This document shows, piece by piece, positions 1-7,473 of a DNA stretch of 7,968 nt. The position numbers and the translations under genes were made by a program. Position 1 is the first letter of the stretch; every line of letters starts with the position of its first letter. Below the pieces are notes generated by a model. It was not told where the DNA came from and searched no databases. It saw only the letters and a list, made by a program, of their open reading frames with translations. The stretch comes from a bacterium (GTDB lineage: Bacteria > UBP15 > UBA6099). The stretch covers positions 1 through 7,968 of the forward strand of contig JAKQPS010000061.1 in NCBI GenBank assembly GCA_029564595.1. The letters are read 5' to 3'.

Positions 1-461
1 GCGCGGCTCGGATACTCGCCCCGCCGCAACTTCTGGCGGATGCCGCGCCACACATTTTCCGTGAGGTTTTCCACATAATATTGCGACTGGCCGAACGCGA
101 TATTGAGCATGAACTTGCCTTGCGGCGTGTTCTCAAACCAGAAAGTCGGGAATTTCAGCGCTTTCAGGTGGCCTGTGGAAAGCAGATGCACGATCCGCCC
201 GCCGTCCACTGCATTCCGCGCCAAGCGGTCGGGATGCCATGAAATGACGCCCTCCGCGTGGCCACGCTCGATCTCCTTGACCATTTTATCGAAGACGGGC
301 CGACCCGGAGCCTTCGCGGACATCGACTCGACGAATTCGCGGACGATTTGAATGCCGTCTTTCTTCGCCAATTCGCGCAGTTCGTCCAGTTGGCTTTCAA
401 TCGAAAGCATCTGGCGGTCGTCCTCGTCGGTGGACTTGCGGGCATAGAGGAAAAAGTTCAT
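1..461 (-). CDS. Large serine recombinase, N-terminal part (cut by window edge)
   Basis: This gene encodes a site-specific DNA recombinase that would cut and rejoin DNA through a covalent serine-DNA link. Only the first 153 residues are in the window. The N-terminus reads MNFFLYARKST, with the Y-x-R-x-S signature and S10 as expected nucleophile (R8 beside it). It is followed by SIESQ at 20-24, the DRLAR motif at 78-82, and the long-helix region AFGQSQYYVENLTENVWRG at 122-140 that leads into the Recombinase domain of large serine recombinases. The start ATG (461-459) overlaps the stop of the upstream AbrB-type gene as ATGA, so the two are probably translationally coupled. Such enzymes serve phages, integrative elements and transposons. 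No att site or other element gene is visible here, and the C-terminal DNA-binding half is out of view, so intactness cannot be judged. Family assignment is secure; the element it serves is unknown. Confidence 0.93.
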   Translation of the reverse strand, partial: MNFFLYARKSTDEDDRQMLSIESQLDELRELAKKDGIQIVREFVESMSAKAPGRPVFDKMVKEIERGHAEGVISWHPDRLARNAVDGGRIVHLLSTGHLKALKFPTFWFENTPQGKFMLNIAFGQSQYYVENLTENVWRGIRQKLRRGEYPSR

Positions 462-682
462 GGCATGCCCCCTTTCTTGGTCTTGGCTTCGAGTTTGCGG
501 AGTTCGCCAATCACACGCTGGAAGGAATTGGCCTGCGGCACGGTGATGGGCTTCAAAAGCAGGTTTTCGCCATCCGAGACGATCACCATTTTGGAGCCCG
601 TCGAAAGCCCGAGAAGATCGCGGAAGCGTTGGGGAATGGTGAATTGGCCCTTGGAAGTCAGCGCGGCAATGTCAGCGTGCAT
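458..682 (-). CDS. AbrB/MazE/SpoVT-type DNA-binding protein
   Basis: This is a 74-residue protein with a swapped-hairpin AbrB domain over about residues 6-46: LTSKGQFTIPQRFRDLLGL, then G-S-K-M-V-I-V and the LLLKPI strand. These are the hallmarks of SpoVT/AbrB and MazE-type DNA-binding dimers. The C-terminal tail is short and basic (about 50-74, with LRKLEAKTKKGG). The start ATG at 682-680 has the Shine-Dalgarno AAGGAG (693-688) 5 nt upstream. Its stop overlaps the recombinase start by ATGA, so the pair forms one operon with this gene first. By family it could be an antitoxin or a transcription regulator. Because the partner is a recombinase and not a toxin nuclease, a regulator of recombinase expression is the likelier role (inference). 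It probably binds its own promoter, where an imperfect palindrome is seen at 745-770. Confidence 0.9.
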   Translation of the reverse strand: MHADIAALTSKGQFTIPQRFRDLLGLSTGSKMVIVSDGENLLLKPITVPQANSFQRVIGELRKLEAKTKKGGMP

Positions 683-1335: not shown

Positions 1336-1530
1336 TTCCCCCCTTGCCGCGGCCTTCACCCTTTGCGCCCGCCTTCCTCAAGCCCCCCTTGCGCGGCCTT
1401 GCCTTCCCCCCTTGGCCACGCTTCCCCCCATAGCCCGGCCTTCCTTTCCCCCTTCTGCCGCGACCTCCTCAAGCCCCCATTAGGCCGCTCCGCTTTTCCC
1501 CCCTTGCGCGGCTTCCCCCCTTACGCGCGG
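1336..1530. repeat. Imperfect C-tract repeats (about 8 units)
   Basis: Eight runs of five or six C begin at 1338, 1383, 1406, 1424, 1448, 1474, 1498 and 1515, mostly 17-26 bp apart (the first gap is 45 and contains a degenerate CCC). Most have a CTT or TT flank and are followed by a GCGCGGC-like block, giving a unit near TTCCCCCCTTGCGCGGC. CCTCAAGCCCCC occurs twice (from 1377 and from 1467). The minus strand is therefore a series of G5-G6 tracts that would appear in any read-through RNA downstream of the 1873-2619 gene. The pattern is directly visible; its role is unknown. Confidence 0.6.
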
Positions 1531-1841
1531 CGCTGCCGCGCCGCTACGCTGGCCCCTCGCTCCGCTTCGCGTCGCTCGGGATAGCCGCCCCCGCTTCGGC
1601 CACGGCCCCGCCGCTGACGCGGCTGGGCGCGGCCTGCGCAGGGGGCGGCTGTCCTCGCCGCTGTTCGCGGCTGCGGGTGGAACTCGCTTCCCGACACGCT
1701 TCGCGGTCGGGACGCGCTCGCCTCTGCCTCGGCCAAGGGCCTCGGCACCCACGCGGGCCTGTGCCCTGCGGGCAAAGCGGCCCGCGTGAAGATCGGCGGG
1801 GTTCTTCGCGGCGTTCTGCCGCGCTCTTCCGCCCTGCGGGC
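1525..1841. repeat. Cluster of GC-rich perfect hairpins
   Basis: This stretch holds no credible gene but many strong inverted repeats: GCGCGGC-GCT-GCCGCGC (1525-1541); CCCGAC/GTCGGG with inner CGC-TTC-GCG (1690-1711, one bulged A); CACGCGGGCC/GGCCCGCGTG (1750-1759/1779-1788) enclosing GCCC-TGC-GGGC (1763-1773); CGCGGC/GCCGCG (1807-1812/1818-1823); and a second GCCC-TGC-GGGC (1831-1841). None is followed by a U-tract on the minus strand, so none is a standard intrinsic terminator. The last ones lie 32-66 bp past the operon's final stop and could still stall polymerase or protect the mRNA 3' end. Confidence 0.6.
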
Positions 1842-1872
1842 TTCGGGTGGGGGCGCGCGCGTCTTTATGGCT

Positions 1873-2619
1873 CTATAATGCCATTTTATTCCGAATTATT
1901 CTTTCAAGAACAGCCTTGCCAAAATCGGTTATAATCATTTCCCGTGCTGATGCCGCATCTTCTATTGTCCACACCTTCTCGTTTTTCAGGACATCCATAA
2001 AATTGTAAATACGATGCAAATCCGCAACGATTGTTTCGTCTGGATTCACATATACTTCTGCGAGTTTAAGATAATCAACGCCTCCGCCCGGTGAATTGGT
2101 CGGCCAATATTGGCAAATATATCCAAGACGGCCATTGAACGGCTGGAACCAATTTTTCCCAATTATTGAGGACTGCAATTTATTTGCACTCTCTGCATCT
2201 ATCCATGTGAATTCATTTGTGAAATGACGCAATGCAAGAATCCATCTGCTTCCCGGAAGCGGGTGGAAGGGAGAAATTGTACGGCCTTCGCGTCTAGCAT
2301 GCAGACTACTTGTAAAAATATATGTCGGCGCATTAGTCGTTATGGAACTAACAAGCCAGAGTTTACTTAAACTGTAGCGAATTGTAGTTTCTGAATATTC
2401 CGATGAATATTCCAGATATTCCCCAGAAGGCAGGACGACAGGGCGCAGATCGATTGGCATTTCGTAGACACCCAAGACTATATCATCCTGCTGGAAGGCA
2501 TCGGCAAAACTGTCGGCCACCGCATAGTCGATATTTTCCACAGAGCTATTACCCGCCAATACATATCGCACCGACGATAATGAAACCAACACAAGGAAGA
2601 TGCCGAGATAAGTTTTCAT
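1873..2619 (-). CDS. Secreted 248-aa partner protein, unknown function
   Basis: Not recognised as a named family. The start at 2619-2617 is chosen because GGAGG (2630-2626) lies 6 nt upstream and because it begins a clean signal peptide: MKTY, a hydrophobic core LGIFLVLVSLSS, and likely cleavage after VLA (residues 20-22). There is no lipobox cysteine. The mature part starts with a probable beta-strand region (DIVLGVYE at 46-53, YSLSKLWLV at 82-90, GSRWILAL at 123-130). It ends with a helical region rich in charge (about 194-248, with YNFMDVLKN and DAASAREMI). An OB-fold of the TIMP/netrin-like kind is a weak possibility from the spacing of the LWLV and GSRWILAL strands. The gene begins 23 bp after the giant gene's stop, so they are one operon. 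It is much AT-richer (about one third G+C in a sampled line) than the giant gene's 5' part, suggesting joint acquisition with that gene's 3' end. It could be a partner, inhibitor or immunity protein acting outside the inner membrane (inference). Confidence 0.85.
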   Translation of the reverse strand: MKTYLGIFLVLVSLSSVRYVLAGNSSVENIDYAVADSFADAFQQDDIVLGVYEMPIDLRPVVLPSGEYLEYSSEYSETTIRYSLSKLWLVSSITTNAPTYIFTSSLHARREGRTISPFHPLPGSRWILALRHFTNEFTWIDAESANKLQSSIIGKNWFQPFNGRLGYICQYWPTNSPGGGVDYLKLAEVYVNPDETIVADLHRIYNFMDVLKNEKVWTIEDAASAREMIITDFGKAVLERIIRNKMAL

Positions 2620-2625
2620 ATGGAA

Positions 2626-2630
2626 CCTCC
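2626..2630 (-). promoter_or_regulatory. Shine-Dalgarno of the partner gene
   Basis: GGAGG lies 6 nt before the ATG at 2619, within the 23-bp gap between the two operon genes. It fixes the start there and not at the longer in-frame start at 2727, which would read through the end of the upstream gene and hide the signal peptide. Confidence 0.8.
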
Positions 2631-2642
2631 AATAATTAAAAG

Positions 2643-5600
2643 TTAAGGACAATTCGGATATGTGCATATCATAAGTGCGCGATGACTTGAACCCGCAGCC
2701 GTTTTTGCTTCGCGCTCCATATCGCAAGTGCGAATACTATCTTCGATACTGCTGCGCATGTTTTCGGCTGCTAAAGCGTTATTAAAAGCTGTCTGCGCCA
2801 ATGCCTTCGCTGCGGCCTCTGTGCCGGCAACGAAAGGTTGATTGGCAGTAGCCGCATTCATAACCAACTGAGCATCCCAAAGATCATTTACAATTGTTGA
2901 AGCTGTACCCTCATACTGACCTTCGTGAAATACTTCTTCATCGCGTATCATATTTAAATATTGAGAATTAGCTGGAGCAAACCAGGTTGCATCAGCTTGA
3001 ACATCCCGTTGAAAAGTATTCTGGTTGATATATGCCGCCCACTGTCCATTTGTCAATTGCGTTGCAGAATTTGTGATATTTCCCGACCAAGTCTGCGTAA
3101 CCCAGGTGTGCCCATCCAAGCATGAGCCAAAAGCTGAATCTGCCGTGAAGACAACAGGCGCGGTCTGGCACGAATACCCACCGATGCTAAGTGATGCACT
3201 GATTTTATAGTCAGATGTCTCGTTGCAGTGGTCGGTTTGCGTGGAATACCATCTAACATTGTCAATTTTCCATTCAGTGATGCTTGCGCTTCGTTGAGAA
3301 ATGGAAATACCCTGACCAGAGGGGTTGTCAAATTGAACTGTGTTGTCTGGCTTTGTTGCTGTGAATTGAATACTGCCAAGGCAATTTGCCGCGCTGACGG
3401 GCGTAACAACCAAATCAATGTCCACCTGCCTACCATCGCATTCCCTTAAAACAGATGGGAGAATCACAACTTTAACGACCGTTACCAGAACATTATCCTT
3501 GCACTTGGTTTGCTCGGAATAGCTCCATGAAAGGGTGTTGCTGCCCGGTGCGATGCCCTCCACATAAAGGGTGGTGCTGTTGAAGCTGGCGAAAGGCTCG
3601 ACAAATTGCGACAAGGCCGTCCCGCCGGATGCCGCCGTATAGATTTGGACCCGTGAGGAATCCCAAGTCAAAACCAGATTGCCCGGCGAGCCGGAAGGCC
3701 CGAAGGCTTCCAGGGTCAACGCCGTGCGGGAAGCGTTGGTGTGAACGGAACGGTCGGCGATGAAGCCGCCGGGAGATTCCTCGTCCAGTTCGGCCACGCC
3801 TGCGAGGGTGGCGTTCACGCCGAAGATTTGGAGGGGAATATTCGTCACGCAGTCGGACAGGCCGACGACGGAGAAAGAAGCCTGTCCGGTCCCGCAGCCG
3901 TCGCCCTTGAGGTATATGGTTTTGGGAAGCTGGGCGTTGGTAAACATCGTCGAGCCCAAGACAATGGGCACGCTGCCGGTAGGCGTCCAGTAGGCCGCCG
4001 CGCCGGAGAGCGAAAGCTGCATCAGGCCATTCCAGCCGCTGGGAAGCGTTTGTTTAAGTTGGAGGGGCTCCCCTTCGGCATCGGGATGGAGGGTTTTGTC
4101 GGCCAAAGGGCCAACCGATCCGATGTCGGCCTTTAGTACGGTGGCATTGGCGCGGTCGCTGACGGGAACGCCATCGCCGGAAATCTCCACAAAGGCATCC
4201 CGCATGCCGCCGCTGTGCGCGATGCCCTCCACATACAAAGGCGGGACATTTGACACAGGGAATTGCGTCCCGGAATCGATTTCGTTGTCTTGGTCGTCGT
4301 AGACCTGGAGATAAGAGCTGTTGTAGGCCAGCGTCAGATTGGAGACATATCCCCAAGCGTCCGGCCCGTTGATGCCCAGCGAGCGGCGCACGGCGTTGGG
4401 ATGGGCGCTCTTGTCGGCGAGCAGGAAGCCCACGGTTTCCTCGGATTCTTCCGCCACCCCTGCATCCAAATCCAGCAGAGCCGGGGCGTGGGTCAAAACG
4501 ATGTCCGCGCCGTATTCCGCCGGATTCTCATATTGCCAGGTGGTTCCACCGTCGATGACTTTGAAGGTGAAGTTGGTTTCGCCGCCGGTCAAAATGTAGA
4601 ACACGCGGTTCGTGGGCGGGTTCTGGTTGGGATTCAGCCAGACGCAAGTGACTTCGGGATCCTCCTCGACATCGAAGCTTTCCACGACATGGCCGCCCTC
4701 GACCACCCGGACCATGATAGGCGGGCAGTTGGATTTCGCCTGAATGTGGTAAGTAAGCGTGACATCGTGGCCGATGTCGCCCTCGTCGATGGTGCCGTCG
4801 ACGATCTGCCCGTTTTTCAGCCAGATGTAGGGGCGCGGGTCCACATCGTCGGCGTCGAAAGGATTGGTGAAATTGCCCACTTCGACCGCATTGGGAATTC
4901 CGTCGCCGTCGGTGTCCTCGTCGCCGTCGGGCATGGCGTCTCCGTCGCTGTCGGGGGAAAGCGGATTCAGGCCGCCCCACAGTTCCCAGCCATCGGGAAC
5001 GCCGTCGTTGTCCGAGTCGTAGTCCAGCGGATCGGTGCCGCTGGAAAGCTCGTCCGCATCATTTCCGCGCGGGGGCGCGGAGGTGTCCCAAGGGAAGGCG
5101 TCGCCGTCGGTGTCCACATTGTTTGCGTCGGTGCCAAGCGTCGCCTCGTCGGCATCGCTCACCCCGTCGAAATCGCTGTCCGTTTCGTCGATCTGCGTGC
5201 CGCCCTCGATGGGGAAAAGGCCACCGGCCATTTCGTTGGAATTGGAAAGCCCGTCCCCGTCCAAGTCCAAATAATCGCCTTGCGTGTGGGGTAGCCACGA
5301 GGTCGCGGGCATATTCTTCCAATCGCCCGCGTGGTCCGTGTCGTAGCCGATCCAAGTCCGGCGAATCACCCAATTCGTCCACGGCCGCAGGATAGGCATT
5401 TCCTCGCCGAAGCCGTCCATGGAAAGATTGTATTCGTTCGTGACGCCGTAGAGCAAGGCGTCGGCCACAAAAGACGCCGGGCTCGGAACCACGAGGCGAA
5501 TGCCGAACATCGCCGGAGGATTGGAGGAACTGTTGGGCATGCCCAAGGCCGCTTGATAATCGCCGTTGGTGCCCACCACCAGAAAATCCCCCGAGTCCAG

Positions 5601-6866
5601 TGTGACCCCGGCGGGGAAGGTGAAAACATTGGTCCAGCCCGCCGGTTTCGCGGTTTGGAGGCGGAACCCGGCCAGCGATTTCGGGCTCGGTCCGGCGTTG
5701 AACAATTCGACCCATTCCCCGGGATTCGCCGGGGAATTGTGGATCGGCAAGGCCGCATTGATCACAATTCCGAAATAGTCGCTGCCGTTCAGGGGATCGG
5801 TTTCCAGCGCGATTTCGCGCCCGTCCGAGTGCCCGTCCAAATCCGTATCGGACAAACCGAGGTCGGTGCGGTGAATGAAGATTTCCGCGCCATCGGTCAG
5901 CCCGTCGTTATCGGTATCCAATCGATTCGCCACGGCATAAAACCGGACCCGGGCATTGCTCGATATGTTTGCGTCCTCGTAAACGCCAACCCCGCCGGAA
6001 AGGGCAAGGTTGGTCGTCAGGCATTCCCACTCGCTTTCGATACCATTGAACGGCGGGGAAACGGGGGTCCAAAGGGTGTTGGTGCCGATGTTCGTCACGC
6101 CGTATTCATCAACCCATTCATTCGTTGTCACCGTTGAAGTGTGCCAGACGGTGTAAGCGTAAACCTCCGCCGTGTCCGCTCCGTTCGTCACCGTAATCCG
6201 CATGGAACCATTGGTCAGGCGCTGAACCCCGGCAATCCCAAACTCGCTTGCGCCCAGGCTGCGCAAGACCATCCCGCCGGATTTCGTCGCCTTGGCGGTT
6301 AGGGTTTCCGCATAATCCGCGATGCGGCTTTCGGTGTACAGGTAGGGCTCGACATCTTCGGCGGGGAGCAAATCAAGTTGTAAGGTCACGCGGGCCGGGT
6401 CGGCATCCTCCGGCCATTCGCGGGAAACCCGGTCGGTGGGGATAGTCGCAATCAGCTTGCCCTCGGCATTGAAAACAAGGGTTTCGCGCGTCTTGGGGTC
6501 CAGCGCCAGCGAGAGCGGATAGATCGCCACGCTGTTCTTGTCTTCCCCTAGAAGCTCGTCCAAAAACTTCTCGTCGAAGTTTTCGGCGTCGAACGGAACC
6601 ACGGGCGGGAACATCGGCTGAACCCAAGAGATCCCCTGAGGGGTGATCCGATTGAACATGCGGCGCTGGATTTCCGCGCCTTCCGCCAAGTCCTGAATGT
6701 CGAAAACCTCGTTTTCGATGAAATCGGCGTACTGCTCGGAATCGACGGCGGCGGGCTTTTCGATCCGTATCGAATCCGACGCAATGGCCGCAAGACATAG
6801 TACGGCGACAATGGCGGCGATTCCGATCCCGATGAAGGGCTTTTGGTGATTTTTCGGATTTCTCAT
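2643..6866 (-). CDS. Giant secreted TSP3/lamin-tail repeat protein (1407 aa)
   Basis: This is an exported, probably surface or extracellular protein. Residues 1-29 form a signal peptide (basic RNPKNHQK, core FIGIGIAAIVAVLCLAAIA). Residues 30-315 are unrecognised. TSP3-type Asp-rich calcium motifs (DTDNDG from D317, DTDLDG near 342) precede a lamin-tail-like domain (about 365-483, with FGIVINAAL, GEWVELFN, L-A-G-F-R-L). A second TSP3 block (about 534-674) has LDLDGDG, DSDFDG, DSDNDG, DSDGDA and DTDGDG. Three internal repeats follow, each opening with an (L/I)-A-D-(K/R) element (D818, D923, D1038) and closing with an L-Y-V-E-G-like strand (E880, K987, E1103). The C-terminal module (about 1117-1407) holds E1311-x-x-H1314-x-x-Q1317 and ends CTYPNCP. 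Its DNA is much AT-richer than the rest. The start at 6866 is preferred over 7124 because of AGGAG 8 nt upstream and the signal peptide. Calcium binding and lamin-tail assignments follow from known families; the biological role is unknown. Confidence 0.9.
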   Translation of the reverse strand: MRNPKNHQKPFIGIGIAAIVAVLCLAAIASDSIRIEKPAAVDSEQYADFIENEVFDIQDLAEGAEIQRRMFNRITPQGISWVQPMFPPVVPFDAENFDEKFLDELLGEDKNSVAIYPLSLALDPKTRETLVFNAEGKLIATIPTDRVSREWPEDADPARVTLQLDLLPAEDVEPYLYTESRIADYAETLTAKATKSGGMVLRSLGASEFGIAGVQRLTNGSMRITVTNGADTAEVYAYTVWHTSTVTTNEWVDEYGVTNIGTNTLWTPVSPPFNGIESEWECLTTNLALSGGVGVYEDANISSNARVRFYAVANRLDTDNDGLTDGAEIFIHRTDLGLSDTDLDGHSDGREIALETDPLNGSDYFGIVINAALPIHNSPANPGEWVELFNAGPSPKSLAGFRLQTAKPAGWTNVFTFPAGVTLDSGDFLVVGTNGDYQAALGMPNSSSNPPAMFGIRLVVPSPASFVADALLYGVTNEYNLSMDGFGEEMPILRPWTNWVIRRTWIGYDTDHAGDWKNMPATSWLPHTQGDYLDLDGDGLSNSNEMAGGLFPIEGGTQIDETDSDFDGVSDADEATLGTDANNVDTDGDAFPWDTSAPPRGNDADELSSGTDPLDYDSDNDGVPDGWELWGGLNPLSPDSDGDAMPDGDEDTDGDGIPNAVEVGNFTNPFDADDVDPRPYIWLKNGQIVDGTIDEGDIGHDVTLTYHIQAKSNCPPIMVRVVEGGHVVESFDVEEDPEVTCVWLNPNQNPPTNRVFYILTGGETNFTFKVIDGGTTWQYENPAEYGADIVLTHAPALLDLDAGVAEESEETVGFLLADKSAHPNAVRRSLGINGPDAWGYVSNLTLAYNSSYLQVYDDQDNEIDSGTQFPVSNVPPLYVEGIAHSGGMRDAFVEISGDGVPVSDRANATVLKADIGSVGPLADKTLHPDAEGEPLQLKQTLPSGWNGLMQLSLSGAAAYWTPTGSVPIVLGSTMFTNAQLPKTIYLKGDGCGTGQASFSVVGLSDCVTNIPLQIFGVNATLAGVAELDEESPGGFIADRSVHTNASRTALTLEAFGPSGSPGNLVLTWDSSRVQIYTAASGGTALSQFVEPFASFNSTTLYVEGIAPGSNTLSWSYSEQTKCKDNVLVTVVKVVILPSVLRECDGRQVDIDLVVTPVSAANCLGSIQFTATKPDNTVQFDNPSGQGISISQRSASITEWKIDNVRWYSTQTDHCNETSDYKISASLSIGGYSCQTAPVVFTADSAFGSCLDGHTWVTQTWSGNITNSATQLTNGQWAAYINQNTFQRDVQADATWFAPANSQYLNMIRDEEVFHEGQYEGTASTIVNDLWDAQLVMNAATANQPFVAGTEAAAKALAQTAFNNALAAENMRSSIEDSIRTCDMEREAKTAAGSSHRALMICTYPNCP

Positions 6867-7080: not shown

Positions 7081-7174
7081 AAGACTTCAAAACGCAAAAT
7101 AGAAAAGAACAAGTCCGAACACATAGCATTTCGGAACTGCCGAATTTATCGCAGAAGCCGGGACGGTTGGCGAG

Positions 7175-7298: not shown

Positions 7299-7467
7299 TT
7301 TTCCACACTATGGAAAAGTTTTCTCGGATTTTTCCACAGTCGCTATGGAAAATATTTTCGAGATTTTTCCACGCTATGGAAAATATTTGGCCGATTTTTC
7401 CACGCAATGGAAAAACTATTAGCGAATTTTCCACGCAATGGAAAAACTTTTTCCACAGTGTGGAAAA
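7299..7467. repeat. Array of six palindromic TTTTCCA/TGGAAAA units
   Basis: Six units with identical 7-bp arms TTTTCCA and TGGAAAA occur at 7299-7317, 7330-7352, 7365-7383, 7396-7414, 7427-7445 and 7449-7467. Spacers are 5 bp (CACTA, CGCTA, CGCAA twice, CAGTG), except the second, which is 9 bp. The last is a near-perfect palindrome with 8-bp arms. Centre-to-centre distances are 33, 33, 31, 31 and 22 bp, close to three and two helical turns. The array lies about 430 bp upstream of the giant gene and 60 bp before the candidate RNA at 7527. Likely a multi-site regulator-binding region; DnaA-type boxes are an alternative. Confidence 0.85.
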
Positions 7468-7473
7468 CTCGGA

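Follow-up and report, generated by a model that had tools for sequence, protein, structure and literature searches.

A giant exported protein with exchangeable C-terminal modules and matched partner genes: a candidate polymorphic effector-immunity locus

The giant gene, its partner and their base composition

The 7,968-nucleotide stretch of DNA analysed here (contig JAKQPS010000061.1 of assembly GCA_029564595.1; hereafter the window) carries two genes on its minus strand, one for a giant, apparently exported protein and, behind it, a small one that we call the partner gene (Table 1). For the giant gene the open reading frame (ORF) begins at 7124 and the homologues start at 6866, giving a protein of 1407 residues from the likely start. 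The partner starts with the ATG at 2619, 23 bases past the giant-gene stop, and has GGAGG six bases upstream. Both products have signal-peptide-like N-termini, a by-eye judgement that agrees with the initial annotation of this DNA. In Pfam the giant protein matched TSP3 repeats and a lamin tail domain only, the partner had no match, and the head domain (residues 1-317) was matched by no Pfam or NCBIfam model.

Table 1. Coordinates and character of the features in the window
Feature	Position	Strand	Description
Giant exported protein	2643..6866	-	1407 aa; signal-like N-terminus, conserved N-terminal domain, TSP3, lamin tail domain, repeats, polymorphic C-terminal module
N-terminal head domain	5916..6866	-	residues 1-317; common to the family
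Scaffold	3533..5915	-	TSP3 repeats, lamin tail domain, repeats
Junction	3474..3532	-	end of third repeat, YS[EA]Q[TS]xCxDxxxxxxxKV; seven modules lose likeness past it; GC change point at 3532
Exchangeable C-terminal module (tip)	2643..3476	-	277 aa; EEVFH and a later conserved Glu; HENKH in related modules
Partner gene	1873..2619	-	248 aa; signal-like N-terminus; own Shine-Dalgarno; predicted cognate of the C-terminal module
GC-rich degenerate flank	1340..1866	.	75% GC
TTTTCCAC...GTGGAAAA inverted-repeat array	7299..7470	.	upstream of giant gene

A maximum-likelihood change point in G+C content (GC) was computed within the giant gene, with 300 codon shuffles as the control. It falls at window position 3532 (residue 1112 when numbering begins at 6866, the likely start). 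The log-likelihood gain is 28.5, compared with at most 9.2 in the shuffled controls, and GC drops from 60% to 46% across it. This is the end of the third repeat (junction, 3474-3532), where the initial annotation had placed a sharp change of composition on the basis of five hand-counted values, all of which were reproduced exactly (65.0, 61.7, 45.0, 43.3, and 33.3%). The C-terminal module and the next gene depart from the scaffold together, as had been claimed: GC at third codon positions falls from 0.75 in the scaffold to 0.42 in the module, and the partner has 0.41. Overall GC is 46.1% at 2643-3532, 43.1% in the partner, and 36.7% at 1861-1920, and it is very high again after the partner stop, also as described earlier (76.7% at 1801-1860). 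A comparable pattern is seen at L004, L005, L006, and L007, all of which have other tips (head, 54 to 60%; tip, 43 to 49%; partner, 38 to 44%; then up to 78%); at L037, GC shows no sharp step at the junction.

C-terminal modules and their partners are exchanged at one junction

Seven relatives of the giant gene came from a scan of genome contigs, and further ones were found by searching the genomes of those relatives. Over residues 1-1114 the giant protein is 73% identical to L004. Seven modules that include the last scaffold repeat (window, L004, L037, L082, L112, L110a, and L110b) were compared over 100 residues on each side of the junction; identity is 52 to 88% before it and 14 to 28% after it, except for the cognate pair of the window and L110b, at 62% after it. 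L110a and L110b, which lie on one contig, are 88% identical before the junction and 26% after. Each module has its own small gene behind it, which in close relatives starts anywhere from 32 bases before to 23 bases after the end of the tip gene; L039 and L040, which have shorter open frames and no evident partner, are possibly broken genes or fragments. The alignments show a sharp boundary between a conserved head and scaffold and one of many unrelated C-terminal modules. The initial annotation had asked whether homologues of residues 1-1110 vary at the C-terminus and whether each variant has its own downstream gene, and both proved to be so; neither a constant C-terminus, uniform composition, nor vertical co-inheritance was found. 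At L089, a second ORF (758 aa, minus strand) is apparently a frameshifted L037-type tip beside an intact HELGHLLT-type locus.

That the module travels with its own downstream gene was borne out on unrelated carriers and in an orphan pair. L110 is a tandem in which the scaffold, one tip, and its partner are followed by the last repeat once more, now without a head and joined to a window-type tip, and then by a window-type partner; this headless orphan module with its partner (L110 5779-7625) is a single case, in which the tip is 51% and the partner 27% (E 3e-6) identical to those of the window. L120, whose carrier resembles the window scaffold in TSP3-like repeats only, has a tip 68% and a partner 36% (E 1e-44) identical to the window's, and L111, whose carrier shows no significant likeness to the window scaffold, has a tip 49% and a partner 38% (E 8e-37) identical to those of L004. 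The matching partner lies 3 bases downstream in L120 and 24 bases downstream in L111.

Among 23 cassettes (253 pairs), tips are similar in 17 pairs and partners in 6, and all 6 lie within the 17, a coincidence reached by 0 of 20,000 label shuffles; the shuffles take cassettes as independent and L005 and L006 have a near-identical cassette, so this number is a guide, and five coinciding pairs are left without L005/L006. In those two loci, the DNA of the tip, the partner, and what follows is 98 to 100% identical, and the head and upstream DNA is 79 to 100% identical in blocks. Partners diverge at least as much as tips (tip/partner identities of 68/36, 59/27, 51/27, 49/38, and 48/48%). They are of several kinds, including one with weak HEAT repeats (L088; HEAT_2, E 0.004); profile comparison found no relation between window-type and L004-type partners, and the corresponding tips align weakly (E 0.0026). 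Judged from these comparisons, the tip and its downstream gene form one exchangeable unit, found also as an orphan copy and on unrelated carriers.

Drift in composition or an assembly chimera could in principle produce an AT-rich block that is no functional cassette, and the contigs are indeed short and break at repeats, and the window's bin is doubtful. We regard this explanation as very improbable; it is largely refuted because tip and partner co-recur (L120, and the six coinciding pairs in 23 cassettes), whether on other carriers or in an orphan. The junction and the AT-rich block also recur in independent assemblies, and the window sequence is found at 99.8% in L003.

The head domain (residues 1-317) was matched in 21 of 288 sampled genomes of one relative's phylum, strongly (E < 1e-100) in six. 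Assembly G066 alone has 17 pieces of it, and many contigs there terminate within it, as expected because the head is repeated sequence. The assemblies of the relatives carry Kiritimatiellae, Lentisphaerae, and Verrucomicrobia labels, and some are probably misbinned. The window's own assembly belongs to a small phylum, and the gene is absent from its six other sampled genomes. L003 (CALMWW010000021.1) and G000:C50 have 6.1 kb in common at 99.8% identity, and the two bins holding it differ in GC (31% for the L003 bin, 51 to 57% for the other). Because the six phylum mates are without the gene and the L003 bin is at 31% GC, at least one of the L003 bin and the window's bin is probably misbinned; the host of the window is uncertain and most likely a Kiritimatiellota bacterium.

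GC-rich flanks of the type at 1340-1866 recur beside these loci, either on a single side or on both, and related assemblies have them in up to 9 places, often at contig ends. Arrays of TTTTCCAC...GTGGAAAA lie upstream of the giant gene in most close relatives, often with a 31-base spacing (L004 1078-1328; L005 221-354; L006 1069-1202; L007 787-951; L112 1601-1702). Such an array is possibly regulatory, or it may be a general repeat, because in L112 it sits away from the gene. Beyond the cassette, window 3-682 (minus strand) encodes the N-terminal domain of a serine recombinase, lying behind a MazE/AbrB-like gene and truncated by the edge of the window; this region could be part of a mobile element.

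Predicted roles of tips and partners

Nine homologues of the window tip have four invariant positions only: the second-position E and the final H of [H/E]ExxH, a Glu some 70 residues further on, and one Pro. The window tip thereby bears a weak signature reminiscent of zincins (HExxH plus a third Glu ligand). The initial annotation had recognised no toxin fold, and the window tip did draw no domain match; the weak zincin-like signature refines that statement. A DUF922 assignment for this tip family was set aside, as the weak Pfam match (E 0.09) concerned one member and was absent in seven members rescanned. Other tips carry HEWGHAVGCSH, which is matrixin-like (Pfam E 0.004), or HELGHLLT. Among the remaining motifs, GWFHTHT resembles that of Tox-JAB-2/DUF4329, SGHG together with FAGCS resembles clan CD cysteine peptidases, and one Cys/His pattern is transglutaminase-like (Pfam E 0.015). 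Domain searches gave sub-threshold enzyme matches only, with no tip at the Pfam gathering score, and no known trafficking domain; PADLOC and plasmid searches gave no matches. For the partners, a TIMP/netrin-like fold was considered from a by-eye pattern (ADVILxGxxE...G...LxFLKK) and is not claimed, as neither Pfam nor PDB supports it.

The locus is, in our judgement, probably a polymorphic effector-immunity (or effector-inhibitor) system. The exported head and repeat scaffold would carry one of many unrelated C-terminal modules, here an exported enzyme, perhaps a metallopeptidase of the zincin-like type or a relative whose metal ligands have changed. Its targets, reached outside the cytoplasm, would be neighbouring cells or their envelope, and the co-transferred, exported partner would bind and block the enzyme in the producer and its kin. 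The repeated head, the last repeat, and the flanking repeats would be the sites of the homologous recombination that swaps cassettes. The effector/partner architecture that the initial annotation had proposed is supported by variable tips, matched partners, and cassette transfer, and its functional side stays a prediction.

Several points weigh against this reading. The window tip may not be a classical peptidase, because it and four relatives have Glu as the first metal ligand of HExxH (five of the nine homologues: window, L110, L120, L122, and L124). The other tips look like enzymes at scores under curated cut-offs and partly by eye. Neither the window tip nor its partner has a Pfam, NCBIfam, PADLOC, or PDB match, and AlphaFold models from four-sequence alignments are too poor for use (predicted local distance difference test, 36.8 for the tip and 39.9 for the partner). 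No delivery machinery was identified, and tip toxicity, partner protection, and partner binding are predicted roles only.

Enzyme-like, exported tips would also suit secreted enzymes for nutrition or the envelope, with partners as dedicated chaperones, foldases, or self-protection inhibitors, so that swapping would widen the substrate range rather than serve conflict. The tips do look like peptidases and transglutaminases, the partners, like the enzymes, are apparently exported, and the carriers have Ca-binding TSP3 repeats, which are common in secreted proteins; the small stand-alone proteins described below likewise have a downstream exported gene. We nevertheless consider this rather unlikely, as a headless orphan behind a full copy, rapid partner divergence, and many tips per head are typical of conflict systems (PMC3150448, PMC3482391). 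It is more doubtful still that variable adhesins or binding modules form the tips and that the partner aids surface display or assembly. The large repeat scaffold, the multi-copy head in G066, and the mosaic heads would suit such surface diversification, but several unrelated tips have enzyme-like motifs, and the partner changes with each tip where a common assembly factor would be expected to stay.

Four further loci encode a small stand-alone, apparently exported [H/E]ExxH...E domain (L121 2537-3664, plus strand; L122 2860-3729, minus; L123 1128-1970, minus; L124 2739-3638, plus). Each is followed by a different exported gene, possibly a peptidase-inhibitor family outside the giant carriers.

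Returning to the effector-immunity reading, we suggest tentatively, and with less assurance than for the reading itself, that these loci are an undescribed class in Kiritimatiellota-like bacteria, with a new exported head and TSP3 scaffold, mostly peptidase-like extracytoplasmic tips, and exported inhibitors; a new [H/E]ExxH...E peptidase family and the fast-evolving inhibitors that go with it would be part of this class. If so, a largely uncultured group, with a new carrier, would join those that have polymorphic effector-immunity systems, and studies of exported, fast-evolving inhibitors could draw on the cognate enzyme-partner pairs of these loci, several of which are peptidase-like. They would also be a natural example of cassette exchange, with one junction, many tips, an orphan, and shared tips on unrelated carriers.

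Comparison with known polymorphic systems

A search for literature on polymorphic toxins in Kiritimatiellota returned no relevant paper; it covered open-access work only, so this absence is weak evidence. Two published accounts allow closer comparison, and the window's carrier, with its distinct head and its TSP3 scaffold, was found in neither (PMC3150448, PMC3482391).

Poole et al. described CdiA and Rhs loci, including orphan C-terminal (CT)/immunity modules that retain a piece of upstream sequence (PMC3150448). CdiA-CT/CdiI and Rhs-CT/RhsI resemble the window family in their conserved head, fixed junction, polymorphic C-terminus, adjacent downstream immunity gene, orphan pairs, and module interchange. 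Unlike them, the window family has no VENN or DPxGL motif at the junction; in Pfam the giant protein shows TSP3 and the lamin tail domain but neither FHA nor YD repeats; there is no CdiB gene within the window; and the partners appear to be exported, with effector and immunity roles that are predicted here from sequence.

The account of Zhang et al. covers polymorphic C-termini behind lineage-specific N-terminal domains, toxins that are peptidases, and immunity proteins, some of the HEAT type and a minority of them secreted (PMC3482391); its text mentions neither TSP3 nor thrombospondin. The APD1/APD2 effectors of Amoebophilus treated there have, like the window family, a signal peptide, a highly conserved N-terminus, and extremely polymorphic C-termini, whereas the window family has a different head, a TSP3 and lamin-tail scaffold, and a downstream partner for each tip. 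Although no tip attains a Pfam gathering score and the window tip family has no model, several tips resemble the peptidase-type toxin domains Tox-MPTase, Tox-JAB-2/DUF4329, Tox-TGase, and caspase at the level of motifs (HExxH, HTH, SGHG), and the L088 partner resembles the HEAT-repeat immunity proteins of the same account (PMC3482391).
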